Assembly: GCA_021784755.1 (NCBI GenBank)
Contig: JAJYHM010000072.1
Span: 1 to 64,000, forward strand
Source: Pseudomonadota bacterium
GTDB lineage: Bacteria; Pseudomonadota; Gammaproteobacteria; Acidiferrobacterales; Acidiferrobacteraceae
Reading direction: 5' to 3'
Length of the DNA stretch: 64,000 bases
The notes beneath the pieces are model-generated. The model was not told the origin of the DNA and did not search any database. It was given only the letters and a program-made list of their open reading frames with translations. This document shows, in pieces, positions 872-16,114 of the stretch (within the stretch, counting starts at the first letter, position 1; each line of letters starts with the position of its first letter). The position numbers were made by a program, and so were the translations under genes.

Positions 872-2365
872 ATGCGCACGCAAACCGGCTTCCGATTTCG
901 CTGTTATCCCACCGCCGCGCAGGCGCACATCCTGCTGCGCTGGATCGGCTGTCAGCGATTTGTCTACAACGCCAAAGTGACGGAAGACCGGTATTACCGG
1001 AAGTTCGCCGGGAAGGCGTTGGGCCTACCCGAGCCATATCCGCCGGTGGACCAGCAGTACAGCCGGTATATCCACCCCGATCTCACGCCCTGGCTCAAAG
1101 AGGTGCCGTCCCAGGTGCTGCGCAACGGCGCGGTGCGCTGGCGCCAAGCTTATGCCCGATACTTCCAGAGGCTGGGCGGACGCCCGGTGATCAGAAAGAA
1201 GAGCGGACGACAGGCCGTGTGGCTGACATCGGAACTGTTCACCTTCACACCCATTGCGGACACCAGGACCGGCGAGATTCTGGGAAATAGACTGACCGTG
1301 GGGACCAGGAAAGTTGCCGTGGGCGACATCCTGTTCAACGCGCACAAGGATTACCGCATCCCCAACTCCATTCGCATCGGTGTGGAAGCCGGGCAATGGT
1401 TTCTGTCCTTCAGCAACGAAGATTTGAGTCAGGTTCCTGATGAGGCGGAAACCGTGGAATGGCTGCGGCAGTTCTCCGAAGAGGAATTACTGGCCCGAAC
1501 CTTCGGCGGCGATCGGGGCGTGGAGATCCCGCTGGCGGGCAATCATGGGGAAGCCTTCGACTTCGACCCCGTCCAGAAAGCGCGTATGGAGAAGAAGGTG
1601 CGCCAGACCAAACGCTACCAGCGCCAGATGGCCCGCCAGCGCACTCAGGCGGCCAAGGAAAAGTGTCCGGCCGGCGCGAACTATCGAAAGACCAAAAGCC
1701 GTCTCGCCAAGACGTATCAGTACGGCAAGAACGTTCGGGATGACTTCGCCCACAAGACCAGTCGGGCCATTGTGCATAATCCCGACACTTTGCTGATGGT
1801 GTACGAAGACCTGAACGTCAAAGGGATGGCGAAGAAGCCCCAGGCCAAGAAGGACGAAAATGGCCACTGGGCGAGGAATCAGGCGGCGGCCAAGGCCGGG
1901 CTCAACAAGAAAATACTCACGGCCGCCTGGGGCAAAACGGTGACTTTCACCCAATACAAGGCCGTCAAGGCCGGTAAATTGTGTATCAAGATCAACCCTT
2001 ATCAAACCTCGCAGGAATGTGCCGCGTGCGGGCACATTCATCCTGACAACCGGGTTTCGCAATCCGCGTTTGTCTGCCAAGCCTGCGGGCATCAGGACCA
2101 TGCCGATCACAATGCGGGGCGGGTTATCGCCAGGCGGGGTGTGCGGTTGCTGCTTTCCGGCGGGTATCTACCCAAAGAGAGTAAGCGCTGCGGAATCTTT
2201 CGGCGCAAAGCAGTAGAAGCGATAGGGCCGGTGCGGTCCGAATCTACGCCTGGGGAGTCCATCGTAAGTCGTGAGGCTGGAAACAGCCTGACGCAGGGGA
2301 CGGCGAACCAGGACAATCTCTTCGTGAGGAGAGAAACCCCCGCTACAACCGCTTGTGCGGTTTAG
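872..2365 (+). CDS. tnpB: RNA-guided endonuclease TnpB (IS605 OrfB family)
   Basis: N-terminus MRTQTGFRFRCYPTAAQ; RuvC motifs GGDRGVE, YEDLNVKGM and DHNAGR; zinc-ribbon CAACGH...CQACGH. ATG at 872 preferred over ORF start 815. Confidence 0.95.
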   Translation: MRTQTGFRFRCYPTAAQAHILLRWIGCQRFVYNAKVTEDRYYRKFAGKALGLPEPYPPVDQQYSRYIHPDLTPWLKEVPSQVLRNGAVRWRQAYARYFQRLGGRPVIRKKSGRQAVWLTSELFTFTPIADTRTGEILGNRLTVGTRKVAVGDILFNAHKDYRIPNSIRIGVEAGQWFLSFSNEDLSQVPDEAETVEWLRQFSEEELLARTFGGDRGVEIPLAGNHGEAFDFDPVQKARMEKKVRQTKRYQRQMARQRTQAAKEKCPAGANYRKTKSRLAKTYQYGKNVRDDFAHKTSRAIVHNPDTLLMVYEDLNVKGMAKKPQAKKDENGHWARNQAAAKAGLNKKILTAAWGKTVTFTQYKAVKAGKLCIKINPYQTSQECAACGHIHPDNRVSQSAFVCQACGHQDHADHNAGRVIARRGVRLLLSGGYLPKESKRCGIFRRKAVEAIGPVRSESTPGESIVSREAGNSLTQGTANQDNLFVRRETPATTACAV

Positions 2366-2400
2366 CGGCGGGAGAGTTCATCCGTTGGCAGAGAAGCCAC
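2216..2400 (+). ncRNA. Candidate TnpB reRNA/omegaRNA overlapping tnpB 3' end and IS right end
   Basis: AGGCTG-GAAA-CAGCCT stem-loop at 2274-2289; right-end hairpin CCGCT..AACCGC-TTGT-GCGGTT..AGCGG at 2340-2368. Position matches known TnpB reRNAs (established knowledge); boundaries inferred. Confidence 0.6.
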
Positions 2401-2588
2401 GCGGTTTTGTTCGTTGTATCGAGGTCGCGCCGGATGGTGAGCATGCGTGCCGCCGCCGCGTCCCGGGATGTCGCCGCGCCCAGCGACGCTGTTGGGGCTT
2501 TGATGCGGCCGCGTTGCCGGTCAGTGACCGGCCCGTCGCATCGGCCGGCGCCTCGACCATTCCGTTTTTGATTTGTCCGGGAGGTTCT

Positions 2589-4439
2589 TTGACCGCGTCC
2601 AATGCCCGCTCGGACAAGCTTGTTCAGGTCGAACGCGAGGCCGTGACGGCGGCGCTCCTGCAGGCGGCGGCGCATCTGGCTCAGGGTCAGGACGCTGAGG
2701 GCATCCTGCGACCGTTCTGTGACGCACTGGTAGCGGCCACCCGCCACATTCGGCTTGCCTGGATGTGGCTCGGAAGCGCGGACACTACCATTATCCGCCC
2801 GACTTACGCTGTGGGCGCTGCTCGCGAATATGCCCAGGCCCTGGTCTTGGGGGCTGACGAGGCCACGCGCCCCTTGAGCCCGGGTCTGCGCGCCTTAGCC
2901 GGTGGACGGCCCGTTATGGCCACCGTCCGATCAGACCCGGCCTTCGCGCCCTGGCGCGCCGAGGCCTTGCGTTATGGTCTCGAGGTGGCCGCGAGTTTCC
3001 CGTTCGGTGAGGCGGGTGACGGCAAACAGGGCCTTGTGGCGGTCTATGCCGACGAGCCGGATTATTTCGCGCGCTTGGGCTGGGCCCCCTTCGTCGCGTT
3101 TCAACACCTAGCCCAGGTGGCGCTGACCCAGGCGGCCCTGCGCGACCGCTTGAATACGCTCGCCTCCTTCGACAGCCTCACGGGCTTGCTGAACCGCGGC
3201 GCGATGCAGGGTGCGCTGGAGCGCCTGCATGGCGAAGCGTGTCAGGCGCACGAGACCTATGGCGTGCTGCTCCTCGATATCGATCGCTTCAAGCTTATCA
3301 ATGACGGCTATGGCCATGGGGTTGGCGATACGGTGATCCAGGAAATGGCCCGCATCCTTCGGGAGGGCTTACGTGCCGAGGATCAGGCGGGGCGTTGGGG
3401 CGGGGAAGAATTCCTGTGCCTCCTGCCAGGCGCCGATTGCGCGATTACCGGGGCAATTGCCGAGCGTCTGCGCGCGGGCATTACGGCTCACTCCTTCGCG
3501 GTGAGCGCCGGACACGCCTTGCACGTGACGGTCAGCCTCGGCATGGCCTGTTTTCCCATCGACGGTGACAGCGTTCAGACGCTGCTGAATCACGCCGACA
3601 TGGGGCTCTACGAGGCCAAACGTGACGGCCGCAACCGGACGGCTCGGGCGAGTGATCGGGGGCGCAGCCTGTTTTCTACCGCCCAGCAACTCGAGGCGGC
3701 GCTCACGTCGGGACAGGTGCGACCGGCGTACCAGCCGATCGTGGCGCTGGCTGATGGTCGCCTCGTGGCCAAGGAGGCCCTGGCGCGCATCATCACGCCT
3801 GAGGGCGTGCTGGAGGCCGAACATTTTATCGAGGCGGCGGATCGGTTCCAGTGGCTCCATAGACTCGATCACGACATGATCGGCCAAGTCATCGAGCACT
3901 GTGCGGTCATGCGCAATAGCCAAGACCCGCCCATCGCCTATTTCGTCAACGTCTCGACCGATCTCTTCCACCACGCCGAACGGGTGCAGGATCTCCTTCA
4001 GCGTATCACGCGTACAAGTATGCCGTGCTGCGCGGATACCGATATCGAAAAGCCTTTGGTCATCGAGATCACCGAACGGCAGTTTCTGGGCGACTTTGAT
4101 GCCGTGCGCCGGACGCTTGCCCCGTTCCTCGCCTTCGGCATCCGGCTCGCACTGGATGATTTCGGCAGCGGTTACTCCTCTTTTCGTTATCTCACCGAAC
4201 TCCCATTCGCCTTCGTCAAATTGGATAAGGTGCTCGTGCACAGGGTTCAGACCGCACAAGGCCGGCGCATCCTCCGCGGTCTTCAGGATCTCGCGCGCGA
4301 TCTTGGGTTTCGCACGATCGCCGAAGGTGTCGAGGATAAGGTGTATGCCGATGCCTTGGCCGCCCTGGGTGTCGATTGGGCGCAGGGGCACTATTTCGCA
4401 TCGCCACGATTCGAGGATACGCCCGAGTTGTCCGGGTAG
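2589..4439 (+). CDS. Diguanylate cyclase/phosphodiesterase with N-terminal GAF-like region, GGDEF and EAL domains
   Basis: GGEEF motif (RWGGEEFLCLLPG), EAL motifs (KEALARI, EITERQF, LDDFGSGYSSFRYL). TTG start at 2589 with GGGAGGT upstream preferred over ORF start 2355. Confidence 0.9.
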   Translation: MTASNARSDKLVQVEREAVTAALLQAAAHLAQGQDAEGILRPFCDALVAATRHIRLAWMWLGSADTTIIRPTYAVGAAREYAQALVLGADEATRPLSPGLRALAGGRPVMATVRSDPAFAPWRAEALRYGLEVAASFPFGEAGDGKQGLVAVYADEPDYFARLGWAPFVAFQHLAQVALTQAALRDRLNTLASFDSLTGLLNRGAMQGALERLHGEACQAHETYGVLLLDIDRFKLINDGYGHGVGDTVIQEMARILREGLRAEDQAGRWGGEEFLCLLPGADCAITGAIAERLRAGITAHSFAVSAGHALHVTVSLGMACFPIDGDSVQTLLNHADMGLYEAKRDGRNRTARASDRGRSLFSTAQQLEAALTSGQVRPAYQPIVALADGRLVAKEALARIITPEGVLEAEHFIEAADRFQWLHRLDHDMIGQVIEHCAVMRNSQDPPIAYFVNVSTDLFHHAERVQDLLQRITRTSMPCCADTDIEKPLVIEITERQFLGDFDAVRRTLAPFLAFGIRLALDDFGSGYSSFRYLTELPFAFVKLDKVLVHRVQTAQGRRILRGLQDLARDLGFRTIAEGVEDKVYADALAALGVDWAQGHYFASPRFEDTPELSG

Positions 4440-8607: not shown

Positions 8608-9028
8608 TTAAGGACCGATCCCAGTCGGTTCGGGTACACCGTCTTCGGTGCCGAACGTGAGGTACCAGTGGCCGGCATCGAGGACCAGCCGGCTAGAGGC
8701 CGGAAGGCGGTAACCCTTGTGGGCGGTGAAGGCGATGGGACCTACCGGGAATTTCTTCGTTCCGACGAGGAGCCTGTGGCCCAGAACTTCCCCGGTCTGG
8801 GTGGAGACTGCGGGCTCGAAGGCGAACAGTTCCGAGGTCAGCCACAGGGATTGGAGGCCGTGCTTCTTGCGGATCTTCGGGCGCCCGGCGAGGCTTTTGA
8901 AGAAGCGCTGGTATGCCTGGGCCCAGCGCACCGCGCCGTTGCGCGGCACTTGCGAGGGCACCTCCCGCAGCCACGGGGTTTCCGGGCCGATGAATTGCCG
9001 GTAGGCCTGATCCACCGGCCGCTGCACG
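8608..9028 (-). pseudogene. tnpB: Truncated tnpB (N-terminal part only)
   Basis: Translation ...PWLREVPSQVPRNGAVRWAQAYQRFFKSLAGRPKIRKKHGLQSLWLTSELF... aligns with the TnpB at 872-2365 but lacks the start region and all RuvC motifs. Confidence 0.9.
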
Positions 9029-9271
9029 ACCGCGCAAGGCCGGCGCATCCTCCGCGGTCTTCAGGATCTCGCGCGCGATCTTGGGTTTCGCACGATCGCC
9101 GAGGGTGTCTGGGATAAGGCGTGTGCCGACGCCTTGGCCGCCCTTGGGGTCGATTGGGCGCAGGGCCACTATTTCGCATCGCCGCGATTCGAGGATACGC
9201 CTGAGTTGTCCGGGTAAGAGCCTGAAGACCGCAGCAACGCCACCCACTCGTTCGGGTCTGTGGACCCCTGT
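9028..9271 (+). repeat. Direct repeat B: duplicated 3' end of GGDEF-EAL gene
   Basis: Matches 4250-4491, including EAL C-terminus (ARDLGFRTIAEGV...DWAQGHYFASPRFEDTPELSG) and downstream GTTCGGGTCTGTGGACCCCTGT. Confidence 0.9.
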
Positions 9272-9387
9272 CCGGCCCGCAGGGCGGCGATGCGCGTCAG
9301 TGCCTCCTGGGCCCGGGGAGAGACGGTGAACTTAGGGTCCGCGAGGATACGATCCAGGAGCGCCAAATTGATGGTGTGGTCGGCGAG

Positions 9388-9450
9388 CAAAGGAGAACAA
9401 AAGAGGGAAGAAAAAACCACGCCGCCCGTTGACAGGTCGAAACACATCAT
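9388..9450 (+). repeat. Partial (3' tail) copy of the 255-bp repeat
   Basis: CAAAGGAGAACAAAAGAG...CACGCCGCCCGTTGACAGGTCGAAACACATCA matches the tails of 133-387 and 15469-15723; structured 5' part absent. Confidence 0.75.
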
Positions 9451-9787
9451 GTCGGCGACCGTGCATCTTGAGGGCGAACTGGTCGTGCGGCACAATCTCC
9501 CGTGCGCCACGCAGACACTCATCAAGAAGCTTGGCTAATGGATGTGGACGAGCGCGAACATACCGCTGGTATCGGCTCCGCGTGAAATTCGATGCCCGGT
9601 GCCGCCGTTGCCCCGCAGGTCCCGACGCGAGGACAGAGAGTGGCTATGAGATTGGGGAGTGGCTCGCGAGATATCGCCTTGACCGCCGAAATCGGGCGCC
9701 ATTCAGACACTCCAGCAGCCGCTAGCTCTCGGGGGTCATGTTTGCTAGTACTGCAGTTACTACCCCGGTGGTTCTGCTGTCGGGCGC

Positions 9788-9816
9788 AGGGCCTCTTCGG
9801 AGGCCCTAGCTTTTTT
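9788..9816 (+). terminator. Rho-independent terminator
   Basis: AGGGCCTC-TTCG-GAGGCCCT perfect stem with UUCG loop, then TAGCTTTTTT. Confidence 0.85.
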
Positions 9817-9829
9817 GGGGTACATCGCA

Positions 9830-9882
9830 TGGGCACAGGTCCCTACCGCACCGTCGTCTACGTGGACGGAGTCAATTTTTGA
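9830..9882 (+). pseudogene. 5' remnant of a NYN-domain-like gene
   Basis: ATG GGC ... encodes MGTGPYRTVVYVDGVNF then stop; YVDGxNF resembles the start of NYN-domain proteins. Confidence 0.4.
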
Positions 9883-10007
9883 AAGGAGGTGGCGCGCTAA
9901 AAGGTTGCGAAAGATACGACACGGTGTGATGGCAAACAGGTTAGACCGTGACCCGCCAAGCCTGCATGATAGTTCGGGCGAAAAGCCCATAGGAGAAATG
10001 AGGCGTG

Positions 10008-10032
10008 GATCAGCAGATTCCATCTGCTGATC
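10008..10032. other. Perfect 10-bp inverted repeat GATCAGCAGA-TTCCA-TCTGCTGATC
   Basis: Direct reading; lies in a reading frame encoding [28 protein letters not shown]. Confidence 0.7.
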
Positions 10033-10185
10033 GTCGAGGCGTACCGCCGCGGCGAAGAACGGGGCGGCAGCATCGACTGGGAGGACCTGGATCGGGCCGA
10101 CCAGGCGGCGCTTCAGGCATCTGGGGCAAGTCCGGAGACGGATCGTCCCGAGCCAAGTCCGCGCTGCTCGCGGCTTGCCGTCGTC

Positions 10186-10800
10186 ATGGAAGGCGGCATC
10201 GTGCAAGCGGTGATTGCCGAAAGGTACCGCATGAAAGAATTCATCCAACTGCCGGTAGAACGCCGCCGGCTGGTCTGTACGGAAGCCGGTGCACGACTGA
10301 ACCTGTTCGAGATTGCCGTCGAAAAGGATTTCTGGGTGTGCTGGACCTTGCGCAAGCTGTTCGAGTTACCCGAATGGGGCGAACACCTGTCGTTCAAAGG
10401 CGGTACGTCACTGTCAAAGTGCTGGAACCTCATCGAACGCTTTTCCGAAGATATCGATATCGTCATCGACCGGGGTGTCCTGGGCTTTGGGGGAGACAGT
10501 GCGCCGGAATCGGCGCCCAGTAAGAAACAGACGACAAAGCGCATCAAGGCGCTGAAAGAAGCCAGTCAGCAGGCGATCACGGAGAACATACAGCCAGCAC
10601 TTATCGAGGCGATCTCATTGGAACTGCCTGGGGATCTCGAATGGGCGCTCGAGCCCGATCCCGACGATCCCGATCGGCAGACCTTGCTGTTGGTCTATCC
10701 GACGGCCTCCCGGAGCAGGCCGCCTATCTCCGCCGTGCCGTCAAGATCGAGATGGGCGCCCGCTCGGTACGGACCCTTGCAAAATGCTGCCGTGCAAGCA
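10186..10800 (+). pseudogene. AbiEii-like nucleotidyltransferase toxin, frameshifted and truncated
   Basis: [14 protein letters not shown]...[29 protein letters not shown] (AbiEii-type GGTS...DIDI motif). After LLLVYPTA the coding signal moves to another frame ([20 protein letters not shown]). Confidence 0.8.
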
Positions 10801-11362
10801 CGAGGACTGCTCCGTATCATAACTTCGGTCTTTATCCCTTTATAGTATACCGCGCGTGCGCCCTTGATCCCGAAGCGCTCAAGGGCATCAACGAAACGCG
10901 TTGATGGTGGGTGGCACTGCTTAAGGGTCCACGTGGATATCGATGTGCTGGCCGAAATGTCTAAGAACGGTGCGCGCCAGCAAGCAGAGACCCTAGAACA
11001 CCGGCCAACCAAAGGTGGTGGTGCGCTTGCGCGGGGAGGGGTAGTAAGAGGTGGAGGTGTGCGGAGAACTCGGCTTGTGCGGCAAGAGCGAGGTCGCGGT
11101 GTGGCTATCTATTGGATACCGACCACTACGAGCGCAGTTGCTTCGCGCCAAGCGGTATTGCTTCCAGTGGCGAGCAGCAGTGGAGCCTGGAAGGAGATCA
11201 AGCGCAAAATCCGCGCCGAGATAATGACGAAGACAATGGCGCCACTCTCCACGGAACAGTCATGCTTTCGTTCGAAGCATGGGAGAACGGAATAATTTCG
11301 GCAAAGATTGTCGATATCTGCGGAACCGAGTCGCTGAAAGTCATGACCGTGGGAGACTGATC

Positions 11363-12526
11363 ATGCACGTTACGCGTGTGGAGCTAACGAATTGGCGTAA
11401 TTTCCGGGACGTGAGCGTAGGCCTAGGGCCCCGCACCTACCTGATAGGTGCGAACGCGTCTGGGAAATCGAATTTCTTGGATGTGTTCCGCTTTTTGCGC
11501 ACGCTCGCGGCATCCGAAGGTGGGGGCTTGCAGCGGGCACTTAAAGACCGTGGTGGACTAACCAAGTTACGCAGCCTGCATGCGCGGAAGGACCCCAAGG
11601 TACGCATCGCATTGGAGGTCACCGATGAAACGGAAAACGGTGCCCCCATCACCTGGTCTTATATTTTGTCACTGAAGTCTGAAGGCAAGGGGCAACAACG
11701 AGTCATGGTCAGTGAAGAGCGCGTCACTAAGAATGGCGAAACCCTGCTTGAGCGCCCAGATAAAAGCGATCGCAGCGATCACGAGCGACTGACGCAAACG
11801 CATCTGGAGCAGATCGGCGCCAACTCCAGATTTCGCCCCCTCGCCGAATTCTTCGCTTCTGTGACCTATCTACACTTGGTTCCGCAACTACTCAAGCATG
11901 GCGATGAGATTAGCGGCCGCGTACTGGAACACGATCCCTTTGGGCAGGGACTGTTACAACGCATTGCCAAGACGCCAACGAAGACGCGCGATGCACGGCT
12001 AAGACGCATCAAGCAAGCGCTCACAAAAGCGGTGCCGTTATTTTCCGATCTGCGGTTCGATCAGGACCAAGTATCGGGGCTATGGCATCTTGAGGCCAAC
12101 TTTGCTCATTGGCGCGTACATGGCGCTTGGCAGCGAGAGGATCAATTCTCCGACGGCACGTTGCGTCTAATTGGTTTGCTTTGGGCCTTGCAGGATGGCG
12201 ATGGCCCGCTGCTTCTGGAGGAGCCAGAGCTCTCCCTCAACGACGCCATCGTTGCAAAAATTCCGTTGATGATAGACCGTGTACTGCGCGATCGCAAAAA
12301 GCGCGCCTCGTCCCGGCAGGTGTTGGTTAGCACCCACAGCGAGACGTTGCTGCAAGATGCTTCAGGGGGCGTCCTGCTGCTTATTCAACCCGGCAATAAC
12401 GGCTCCACCGTTCGGCAACCAAACGAGGAGGAGAATGCCCAGATGGAGCATGGTCTGACACCGACCGAAGTCTTGTTGCCCAAGACGCGCCCAGAGGGAA
12501 TTGAACAGCCGGACTTGTTTGCATGA
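11363..12526 (+). CDS. AAA family ATPase (OLD/RecF-like, AAA_15/21 type)
   Basis: Walker A GANASGKSN, signature QFSDGTLRLIGLL, Walker B LLLEEPELSL, switch VSTHSE. ATG at 11363. Confidence 0.92.
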   Translation: MHVTRVELTNWRNFRDVSVGLGPRTYLIGANASGKSNFLDVFRFLRTLAASEGGGLQRALKDRGGLTKLRSLHARKDPKVRIALEVTDETENGAPITWSYILSLKSEGKGQQRVMVSEERVTKNGETLLERPDKSDRSDHERLTQTHLEQIGANSRFRPLAEFFASVTYLHLVPQLLKHGDEISGRVLEHDPFGQGLLQRIAKTPTKTRDARLRRIKQALTKAVPLFSDLRFDQDQVSGLWHLEANFAHWRVHGAWQREDQFSDGTLRLIGLLWALQDGDGPLLLEEPELSLNDAIVAKIPLMIDRVLRDRKKRASSRQVLVSTHSETLLQDASGGVLLLIQPGNNGSTVRQPNEEENAQMEHGLTPTEVLLPKTRPEGIEQPDLFA

Positions 12527-13121
12527 AACGGGTGTTGGTTGTCGGAGAGGATGCGCTGAGCTGCGCCCTTGGAGAGCGCTTGGTTGGTTCGGCCATGCCT
12601 GGATGGTCGCTTGTGCCACCGATAAACACAAAAGGCGTCACAAAGTTGATTAGCGGTCTTCCGCGGTATATCGAGCAGGCGCGTTATGTGCGGCCTGTTG
12701 TGTGCGTAGCAGACACAGACGGGAGTTGCGTAAAAACTCTTCTCGCGAGATGGGTGCAGACCCCACCACCAACTGCCTTCCACCTGCGCTTGGCGGTTAC
12801 GGAAGCGGAGAGCTGGGTACTTGCCGACCGCGATGGCTTTGCACGGTATTTCAGGGTGTCGCTCAACAGAGTTCCCAGTCGCACGGACGACATTCAGGAT
12901 CCCAGCGCCTTCTTTTGCAAATTATTTCGAGATCGCGCGTGCGACAATACCGAGACGAGATGATTTCCTCGACGGACCCCAATAAGCCCGGAACAGGTTA
13001 TAACGTCCACTTGTGCGCCTTCATGCGCGATGCGTGGTGCGCCGATCCGGCAAGCGCCGCCTCATCTAGTCTGACAAGATCCCTCACGCGCCTCGTTTCT
13101 TTTGCTGGGAGCTATGAATAG
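12523..13121 (+). pseudogene. TOPRIM-like partner protein of the AAA ATPase, apparently frameshifted near ~12925-12950
   Basis: ATGA overlap with upstream gene; VLVVGED and CVADTDG (TOPRIM-like E and DxD) and AVTEAESW. Frame 0 ends at 12963, but a -1 frame continues plausible sequence (SRSRVRQYRDEMISSTDPNKPGTGYNVHLCAFMRDAW...SLTRSLTRLVSF). Confidence 0.65.
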
Positions 13122-13729
13122 AGTTCGAAATCTGCTGTCCGAGTGATGTCGCCGATACCACAGCGTCCGAAGGTGGTGGTCTTTTGTCGGTCGTTTATCG
13201 CGTAGTTGCAGGAGAATAAGATCGCCTCTGCGGAGGTGCCAGAAAGGGGCCGTCACAGTAGGTTATCTGTCACGGTTTGTTCTGCGGCTTGAGGTTGCAC
13301 GGGGTGGTATCAGTCGCATCGTTTCGGTCCTGTTCAGATTCGAATACCATGATCTGAGTTACCACAAAAAAGTAGGGTACAGGTTGTTGTTGATCCGTGC
13401 ATTCGACGTGGCTCTCGTCGCTACTCGTTCGTTCCCGCCTTTTGCTTTCAGTCACGCGGGAGGCAATTGCCGGGATTGCCTCGCTCTAGGTAATTCGCGC
13501 CCCGGTCCGCCCGCTTTGCCGCATTCGATCTCATGGGCTTAGGCAGGGACCGTCATGCCCGCACTGCTGCCCTGTGCCCGTTTGACCTGACGCTTCACCT
13601 GGGGGGCGCCAGGCACGCTTCGATCGCATATCCCCGTTCCCGCAGTGTCCCGTAAGCGGTACTGCCTTGCGGCGTGTCTGCAGCTCGATCACGACGAAGG
13701 CGGCGACCGATGCCTTTTAGGTTACCGCA

Positions 13730-13870
13730 TACCCAGCGGGTGAGATCGCGTACGGCTTTTGGTTCCGGTCCCGGGAGCCAAGCCGCGTTGAACTCGCCGG
13801 CCTGGTGCACCCGTGCAAGTTGTTCACTATGCCGGCGGTCGGTCTTGACCCGAGCCTTGCCCGGCGTCCA
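13730..13870 (-). pseudogene. IS110-family transposase relic
   Basis: VKTDRRHSEQLARVHQAGEFNAAWLPGPEPKAVRDLTR closely matches VKTDRRDSESLARLHRAGELTAVWIPGPEQEAVRDLTR of the intact IS110 transposase at 14265-15377. Confidence 0.85.
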
Positions 13871-14178
13871 GCGCATTGGATCAAAATCGTATGGCTTGTG
13901 GATTGTCTTGCTCCCGTTGCCCAGAAAACGTGTGGACAAGCCTGTGGATGATTGGCTCTCATCCCCCACGCCGCGCAGAGCTCGGAAGCCGCAGCCGGAG
14001 CTGTGAGGTCGCACGCTGCGACCTTTGTTGGATTGCCTGTTTTGCAAACAGCACGCGAGCCGTTGTGGGCCACGTGTGTGCGAAAAGGGGGCAGGGTTGC
14101 GCTTGGGATCCGCGGCATCAAGGGGCGCGATTTTCAGCAGTTTGGTCGCTGTTCACAGCAGTTTAGACATCATGTGTT

Positions 14179-14264
14179 GACCTGCCCGGCCTCAAGCGAC
14201 GTGGATTAAGCTTGAGGTCGGGTAAACCACCATCAGCTCAGAGCCACAATTGAGGGGGCAGGTC
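14179..14264 (+). ncRNA. Structured IS110 5' leader / candidate bridge RNA segment
   Basis: Closing stem GACCTGCCC(14179-14187)/GGGCAGGTC(14256-14264), 9 bp perfect; hairpin GGCCTCAAGC(14188-14197)/GCTTGAGGTC(14210-14219); small hairpin CTCA(14237-14240)/TGAG(14251-14254). Directly abuts the transposase ATG. Confidence 0.5.
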
Positions 14265-15377
14265 ATGACAAAGTTTAGCAAGTACGTAGGGCTAGATACA
14301 CACAAGGACACGATCGCCGTCGCCATTGCCGAGGCCGGCCAAAGTAAGCCCCGTTATTACGGGGAGATCGCCAACACCCCGGAGGCGGTGGCAAAGCTCG
14401 TGAAGAAGCTAAGCCCCCAGGGGGAAGTCCTGTCGTTCTGCTACGAGGCCGGCCCCTGCGGCTATGGCATCCACCGGCAGCTGACCCATCTGGGTCACGA
14501 CTGCGTGGTCGTCGCCCCCTCACTCATTCCCACCAAACCGGGCGATCGGGTGAAGACCGACCGCCGGGACAGCGAATCGCTCGCCCGCTTGCATCGCGCC
14601 GGCGAGCTCACCGCCGTCTGGATCCCGGGACCCGAGCAAGAGGCGGTACGCGACCTCACCCGCGCCCGGGAAGACACCAAGGCCCTCGAGCGCCAGGCGA
14701 AGCAACGTCTCAGCGCCTTTCTCCTGCGCCATGGCCGCCTCTATGCCTCAGGAAAGACCAAGTGGACCGAGGCCCATACACGCTGGCTTACCACCCTCAA
14801 GTTCGAGGCCCCGGTCCAGCAGATCGTCTTCCAGGAATACGTGGACACCGTGGCGCATCTCACCGGTCGGGTGGCGGCCCTGGAAGAGGAGATGGTGCGC
14901 GTCCTGGATCATTTCTCGCTCGCCCCTGTGGTGCGCGCCTTGATGGCGTTGCGCGGCGTTCAGCTCATCACGGCCCTCACCGTGGTGGCCGAGATCGGGG
15001 ATCTCACCCGGTTCGATTCCCCACGCCAACTCATGAGCTATCTGGGGCTCGTGCCCTCCGAATCCTCTAGTGGCGCCACCACCCGCCGCGGCGGCATTAC
15101 CAAGACCGGCAATGGGCACGTCCGGCGGGTGCTCACCGAGGCCGCCTGGTGCTACCGCTTCCCGGCGCGCAAGACCGCGCATCTGCAGCGACGGGCCAAG
15201 AACACCAGCGATCCCGTGCAGGCCATTGCCTGGAAGGCCCAAAAGCGGCTCTGCGGCCGCTATCAGCACCTGCTGCGGGCCGGCAAGATCAAGGTGCGGG
15301 TGTGCACGGCCATTGCCCGTGAGCTGACGGGCTTCCTGTGGGCCATCGCCTGCGCGGTCCAGACGGAGGCCCAGTAA
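14265..15377 (+). CDS. IS110-family transposase/recombinase (DEDD RuvC-like plus Tnp_20)
   Basis: YVGLDTHKDTIAVAI start, VKTDRRDSESLARLHRAGEL, and C-terminal GVQLITALTVVAEIGDLTRFDSPRQLMSYLGLVPSE...RRGGITKTGNGHVRRVL. Confidence 0.95.
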   Translation: MTKFSKYVGLDTHKDTIAVAIAEAGQSKPRYYGEIANTPEAVAKLVKKLSPQGEVLSFCYEAGPCGYGIHRQLTHLGHDCVVVAPSLIPTKPGDRVKTDRRDSESLARLHRAGELTAVWIPGPEQEAVRDLTRAREDTKALERQAKQRLSAFLLRHGRLYASGKTKWTEAHTRWLTTLKFEAPVQQIVFQEYVDTVAHLTGRVAALEEEMVRVLDHFSLAPVVRALMALRGVQLITALTVVAEIGDLTRFDSPRQLMSYLGLVPSESSSGATTRRGGITKTGNGHVRRVLTEAAWCYRFPARKTAHLQRRAKNTSDPVQAIAWKAQKRLCGRYQHLLRAGKIKVRVCTAIARELTGFLWAIACAVQTEAQ

Positions 15378-15468
15378 CCCACTTTATGACATAAGCGTTC
15401 GAGCCCACTATACATGTCATTGCGGTTGGTAAACTCTTAGCCATTCACTATGAGACGTGAGTCTTTAG

Positions 15469-15723
15469 ATCAAGGCAGGAGTGGCCCGGTGGGAGAATCC
15501 TCGACCGGCCTATGAGGCACCGATTTGACTCGGTGACCCTCGATTGTAGAGCGAGGCAGCTCCACGACGAAGCGAAGTCAGGCGGTATCCAACCCGCGTA
15601 TATCAGAGTGATCGACCGTCGTTAACAGCCGCTCGTGCCTTGACTTAAAGGCTTACGAATCAAAGGAGAACAAAAGACGCAAGAAAAACTACATTGCTAG
15701 TGGACAGGTCAAAACATATCAGG
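15469..15723 (+). repeat. 255-bp structured direct repeat, copy 2
   Basis: Same length and orientation as 133-387; identical over the first ~210 bp by eye. Confidence 0.9.
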
Positions 15724-15775
15724 GACTTGACCGATTCTTGTCTTATCATGGCGCCTCATCTACGGGGGGTTACAT

Positions 15776-16114
15776 ATGAAGGTCGCCTATATCTTTACCA
15801 CTCAAGGCCATACAGTTTCCTATAAGCTTGGCAAGATGATCCTGCCTCAGCTCGAGGCGAATGCCCATGGCGTGGACGTCGTGGGCATGTTTTTCTTCGA
15901 GGACAACAACTACGTTCTGGTGCGGGGTAACCCCTTGGGCGAACGTCTGGCAGCGGTTGCCCGCGCGCAAGGGATGTTGTTGATGGGCTGTGATCAGTGT
16001 TGCTATGAGCGCGGGATTGCCGAATCCCTGGTGGAGGGCGCGGTGATCGGCTGCTTCCCCAACCTCTACAACGCATTGGCCTCGCACGCACCGGATCACG
16101 TGATCAGCCTCTAA
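15776..16114 (+). CDS. DsrE-family-like small protein
   Basis: MKVAYIFTTQGHTVSYKLGKMILPQLEANAHGVDVVGMFFFEDNNYVL...GCDQCCYERG; DsrE/F-like fold signature with paired cysteines. Confidence 0.7.
   Translation: MKVAYIFTTQGHTVSYKLGKMILPQLEANAHGVDVVGMFFFEDNNYVLVRGNPLGERLAAVARAQGMLLMGCDQCCYERGIAESLVEGAVIGCFPNLYNALASHAPDHVISL

Follow-up and report, generated by a model that had tools for sequence, protein, structure and literature searches.

In the PARIS system AriA restrains AriB and frees it in response to Ocr (PMC11455837), and AriB is a two-metal TOPRIM nuclease that cuts tRNA (PMC11455837, PMC12409363). The TOPRIM domains of OLD and GajA cut DNA (PMC12409363). AAA proteins neutralise the TOPRIM_OLD toxins with which they are paired, and the two-gene pairs that have been tested behave as toxin and antitoxin (PMC10440598). 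HEC-04, a fusion of ATPase and TOPRIM, was reported to block T4 and T5 (PMC12111858), and BREX loci take up PARIS-like modules, which has been read as an answer to anti-restriction (PMC12839542). In two papers, both of which cite the preprint of Payne et al. (2024), HEC stands for Hma-embedded candidate (PMC12988326, PMC12111858). A literature search found no publication that tests HEC-01 itself or reports anti-phage activity for it.

The window (the whole stretch of 64,000 nucleotides that was analysed) contains a two-gene locus that is, as judged from its sequence, a decayed copy of this already catalogued candidate anti-phage system, HEC-01. The features of the locus and its surroundings are:

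9222-15776, no strand: segment with the AbiEii relic, the mod relic, the pair and the IS110 element, missing at the same site in two congeners (blastn of the mfd-adjacent regions, genomes G011 and G006)
10186-10845, + strand: frame-broken relic of an AbiEii nucleotidyltransferase toxin gene (Pfam AbiEii, 8e-15; PADLOC AbiEii, 2.5e-44)
10824-11360, + strand: remains of the C-terminal part of a type III methyltransferase gene (mod), with a broken frame and in-frame stop codons, its end lying 2 nt upstream of gene A (tblastn)
11363-12526, + strand: gene A, HEC-01A, an OLD/Rad50-type ABC (AAA_21) ATPase (PADLOC, Pfam, fold matches)
12523-12963, + strand: 5' part of gene B, read from its own start, with the Glu9, DxD and ExE residues (HEC-01B profile positions 3-132, 5e-35; alignment with an intact relative)
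12906-13121, + strand: 3' part of gene B in another frame, not read in the window copy, with the conserved YN, W and SLxR (HEC-01B profile positions 126-190)
14250-15377, + strand: transposase gene of the IS110 family, located between the pair and mfd (Pfam Transposase_20, 8e-23; DEDD_Tnp_IS110, 2e-15)

The reading frame of gene A is intact, with an ATG at 11363 and a stop at 12524-12526, and encodes a protein of 387 amino acids. An earlier note on this DNA had described an ATPase with complete Walker motifs. Indeed, the protein matches AAA_21 in Pfam (5e-28) and carries all the motifs of an ABC ATPase, i.e. a Walker A (GANASGKS), a signature (FSDGTLRL), a Walker B (LLLLEEPE) and an STHSE switch, the key residues of which are invariant in 41 sequences that include the window copy. 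The fold matches of the structural model (pLDDT 86.5) are the ATPases of Rad50, SMC, PtuA and GajA, and a PDB sequence search with the gene A profile led to GajA, Rad50, PtuA and AriA.

In PADLOC, gene A matches the HEC-01A model PDLC04180 over residues 1-382 (5.8e-144), and gene B matches the HEC-01B model PDLC04193 in two frames (5e-35 for the 5' part and 5e-13 for the 3' part), values well beyond chance. The B protein of L002, the closest relative (88% identical in A), matches HEC-01B in one piece (1.7e-53), and all 71 full-length B relatives match HEC-01B. A search of NCBIfam gave no match above its cut-offs. Since both PADLOC models are matched, the pair is already catalogued as a candidate system, and the possibility of a less-characterised subtype that was raised in the earlier note gives way to a described one. 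The order of the two genes is identical to that of HEC-01. However, a working HEC-01 system needs two intact genes and in the window only A is intact, B being frameshifted near position 12907; moreover, the window pair lies beside the relic of a type III mod gene and not inside an Hma operon.

The pair resembles PARIS in that an ABC ATPase is encoded beside a separate TOPRIM nuclease, for which a logic of restraint and release is plausible, but the A profile resembles AriA (PDB) over the C-terminal ATPase part only. Membership of PARIS was rejected: the earlier note had already called the second protein not obviously an AriB, and neither the window B nor any of the 71 relatives has a DUF4435 match. 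RloAB and AbiL likewise combine an AAA ATPase with a small TOPRIM-related partner, and RloB is known from type I restriction-modification (R-M) operons. The assignment of B to RloB was also dropped, the best viral Foldseek match being an RloB-like protein (prob 0.97, TM 0.46) that stays below significance as a fold hint, with a non-significant profile comparison (0.7%). HEC-04 (IbfA), for which phage defence was reported (PMC12111858), shares the combination of an ABC ATPase and a TOPRIM domain, but is a single fused protein where the window has two genes. Finally, the ATPase fold of A is related to that of Gabija GajA and the OLD nucleases, in which ATPase and TOPRIM reside in one chain, whereas the window pair consists of two genes with an ATGA overlap.

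This overlap, like the GED and DTDG motifs, had been pointed out before and was recovered here: gene B starts at 12523, inside the stop of gene A, and encodes both VVGED and ADTDG. The operon had also been described as frame-broken, and the alignment with L002, whose intact B has 200 residues, places a single-base length difference in gene B near 12907. A one-base frameshift at this position leaves about 130 of the roughly 200 residues of B in frame. The proposed catalytic residues are among those retained, and the loss amounts to 9 of the 27 highly conserved positions, all C-terminal.

TOPRIM domains have a core of the order b-a-b-a-b-a-b, with a Glu after strand 1 and a DxD motif at the end of strand 3. 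The AlphaFold2 model of the L002 B protein, which is confident along the whole chain (pLDDT 97, pTM 0.92), shows the order b1-a1-b2-a2-b3-a3-b4 with E9 after b1 and D65xD67 ending b3; judged on the order along the chain, B thus has both elements where a TOPRIM domain has them. E9, G39, D65, D67, E97, W99, D103, Y161 and N162 are among the invariant positions in the alignment of the 71 relatives. Foldseek with the same model found no solved structure (PDB) at E <= 1e-3 and no significant viral match, and the B profile, searched against the sequences of the PDB, matched nothing. Profile-profile comparison related B over its full length to DUF4276 (99% probability, E 5.5e-18). B and DUF4276 combined were related to the TOPRIM domains of OLD at 75% (E 2.5e-5), with the Glu and the DxD both in register, the B profile alone reaching 31% and the reversed and unrelated control alignments at most 0.9%. 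In Pfam, the window B scores 12.7 bits against DUF4276 (PF14103), under the curated cut-off of 30.2, and 69 of the 71 B relatives match this family at E <= 1 (best 5.5e-9). These profile comparisons place B with the DUF4276-like families, and B is probably a divergent TOPRIM nuclease. The TOPRIM-like nature proposed earlier is therefore supported by topology, motif placement and profile comparison, but not by a significant structural match. The data supply a candidate active site that can be tested, consisting of Glu9, Asp65, Asp67 and Glu97 with a predicted Glu/DxD metal site.

A genome scan for A yielded 371 relatives, from which the best 80 were taken, leaving 79 loci after one duplicate had been dropped. 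These best 80 relatives are spread over several phyla, with most in the Pseudomonadota. B follows A almost everywhere, and in 71 of the 79 loci it is full-length. In 10 loci the pair has a type III mod gene upstream and a res gene downstream, with gaps of mostly 2-17 nt and ATGA-type overlaps (in L081 mod lies 1.3 kb off). In a Synergistales contig (L056) the order is HmaA-A-B-HmaB, the sole Hma-embedded locus among the 79. The defence-island setting that had been suspected is thus borne out by pairs embedded in both kinds of operon. Of the 57 loci that either are embedded or extend by 1.5 kb or more to each side of the pair, 10 were type III, one was Hma and 46 were other. The pair has been slotted repeatedly into type III R-M operons, and we consider this embedding pattern the most interesting part of the analysis. 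Type III methyltransferases make up 7 of the 84 proteins sampled within 1.5 kb of the pair, and none is listed among 84 distant ones, both being small sets of mechanically called ORFs. Carriage of the pair by phages or plasmids was rejected, there being no phage match, while among plasmids only four match A, and weakly. As a side observation, a gene of 583 residues that is weakly similar to A (L207, 2672-4423) directly follows a more distant type III-like mod and precedes a different large gene, and L204, L206 and L212 also have extra genes at this position, so that cargo in general may be inserted at this junction.

By analogy with the systems described above, the most likely role of HEC-01 is that of a restrained TOPRIM effector that is released on infection. 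We find it rather probable that the window holds a decayed version of such a system, the intact copies of which would consist of an OLD-type ABC ATPase that restrains the TOPRIM nuclease B and lets it go upon infection. A would act as the sensing and restraining partner, and B as a DUF4276-like TOPRIM nuclease that stands alone and has a Glu/DxD metal site. The ATPase would hold B in an inactive state until a signal from the phage, which may be an anti-restriction protein, frees it, after which B would cut nucleic acid (tRNA or DNA) and stop the infection, as AriB does in PARIS. The data show to which family the pair belongs, that its genes are linked, how the motifs are laid out, that relatives are embedded in operons and that the window copy has decayed; the nuclease activity, the restraint by A, the trigger and the target are inferred. 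The pair moves as a unit, and in type III R-M operons it is repeatedly found with mod on one side and res on the other; the window copy, in a segment next to mfd, would have lost its R-M companions and later, by frameshift, B.

The recurrence of the pair within mod-res operons suggests a role as a guard of restriction-modification, with which the embedding would fit. That most related loci lie outside a type III operon counts against the explanation as a whole. We put forward only tentatively that HEC-01 could be a mobile second-line guard of type III R-M, i.e. a PARIS-like cassette with another effector family that repeatedly enters mod-res and is triggered once the R-M enzyme has been disabled by anti-restriction proteins of a phage.

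B could instead be a DNA nuclease that forms one complex with A and cuts invading DNA directly in the manner of GajA and the class 2 OLD proteins, the two not being related as toxin and antitoxin. The fold of A, near GajA and Rad50, the DNA cutting by the OLD and GajA TOPRIM domains (PMC12409363) and the metal-site layout kept in B would agree with such a complex, but B is separate and small, like the partners in PARIS and AbiL, and the tested two-gene pairs of AAA and TOPRIM_OLD proteins behave as toxin and antitoxin (PMC10440598), which makes direct cutting appear rather unlikely. The tight spacing in the 10 mod-pair-res loci might also indicate an accessory role in type III R-M, in which the pair aids Mod-Res in finding or cutting DNA and is not an independent system. 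In the embedded loci, however, the distances of A and B are correlated at 0.87 (0 of 2000 permutations as high), as opposed to 0.14 (p 0.24) for A and Mod and -0.05 for A and Res. The type III state changes at least nine times on the A tree, mod-res is missing in 46 of the 57 loci whose flanks are known, with a further locus lying in Hma, and a close mod-res pair in G443 has nothing in between. We regard an accessory role as highly improbable. The co-evolution of A and B, the changing operon state and the bare mod-res pair of G443 suggest that the pair behaves autonomously, as one unit that different operons carry, A and B co-evolving while the host operon varies.

As to the window copy itself, its frameshift could be an error of sequencing or assembly, in which case the copy would be intact and working. 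The source genome is a draft of 73 contigs, and the comparison with L002 indicates purifying selection on both parts of gene B (dN/dS 0.26 for the 5' part and 0.19 for the 3' part; 0.12 for gene A). B was thus under selection for most of the divergence between the window and L002, so that the break is either recent or an assembly error. The neighbouring AbiEii and mod genes are likewise broken whereas mfd is open along its full length, which argues for a regional decay, and an error is in our view unlikely. The HEC-01 copy in the window is probably inactive. L013 and L042 also have an intact A followed by an apparently broken or missing B, so loss of B may recur.

The pair lies beside the wreck of a type III R-M operon. 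The mod relic was found by tblastn with the upstream Mod proteins of the relatives (E down to 1e-12) and belongs to the same mod family; its 3' part is common to L002. A search for a res relic downstream of the pair in the window found none. This decayed mod C-terminus directly upstream of A, the most telling neighbour, was absent from the earlier note, which had correctly placed the pair beside a toxin-antitoxin relic (AbiEii) and IS elements (the IS110 transposase). In L002, which belongs to the same genus, mfd likewise follows B, and HEC-01B is found in 2 of the 14 genomes of this genus. G011 and G006 have a GGDEF/EAL gene close to mfd and none of the 9222-15776 segment in between, which indicates either an insertion in the window or a loss in those genomes.

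Some further observations concern the same region. Positions 9028-9222 are a copy of the 3' end (about 4240-4427) of the GGDEF/EAL gene at 2355-4439, and a partial duplication thus flanks the TonB-receptor/regulator segment between the GGDEF/EAL copies, next to the insertion site. A TnpB-like gene at 815-2365 (of the IS200/IS605 kind by eye) is apparently full length, and a fragment of a similar gene is present at 8608-9048. On the - strand, 13595-14047 encodes a peptide (KTDRRHSEQLARVHQAGEF) like an IS110 transposase; this appears to be another IS110 copy, decayed, that adjoins the intact one.
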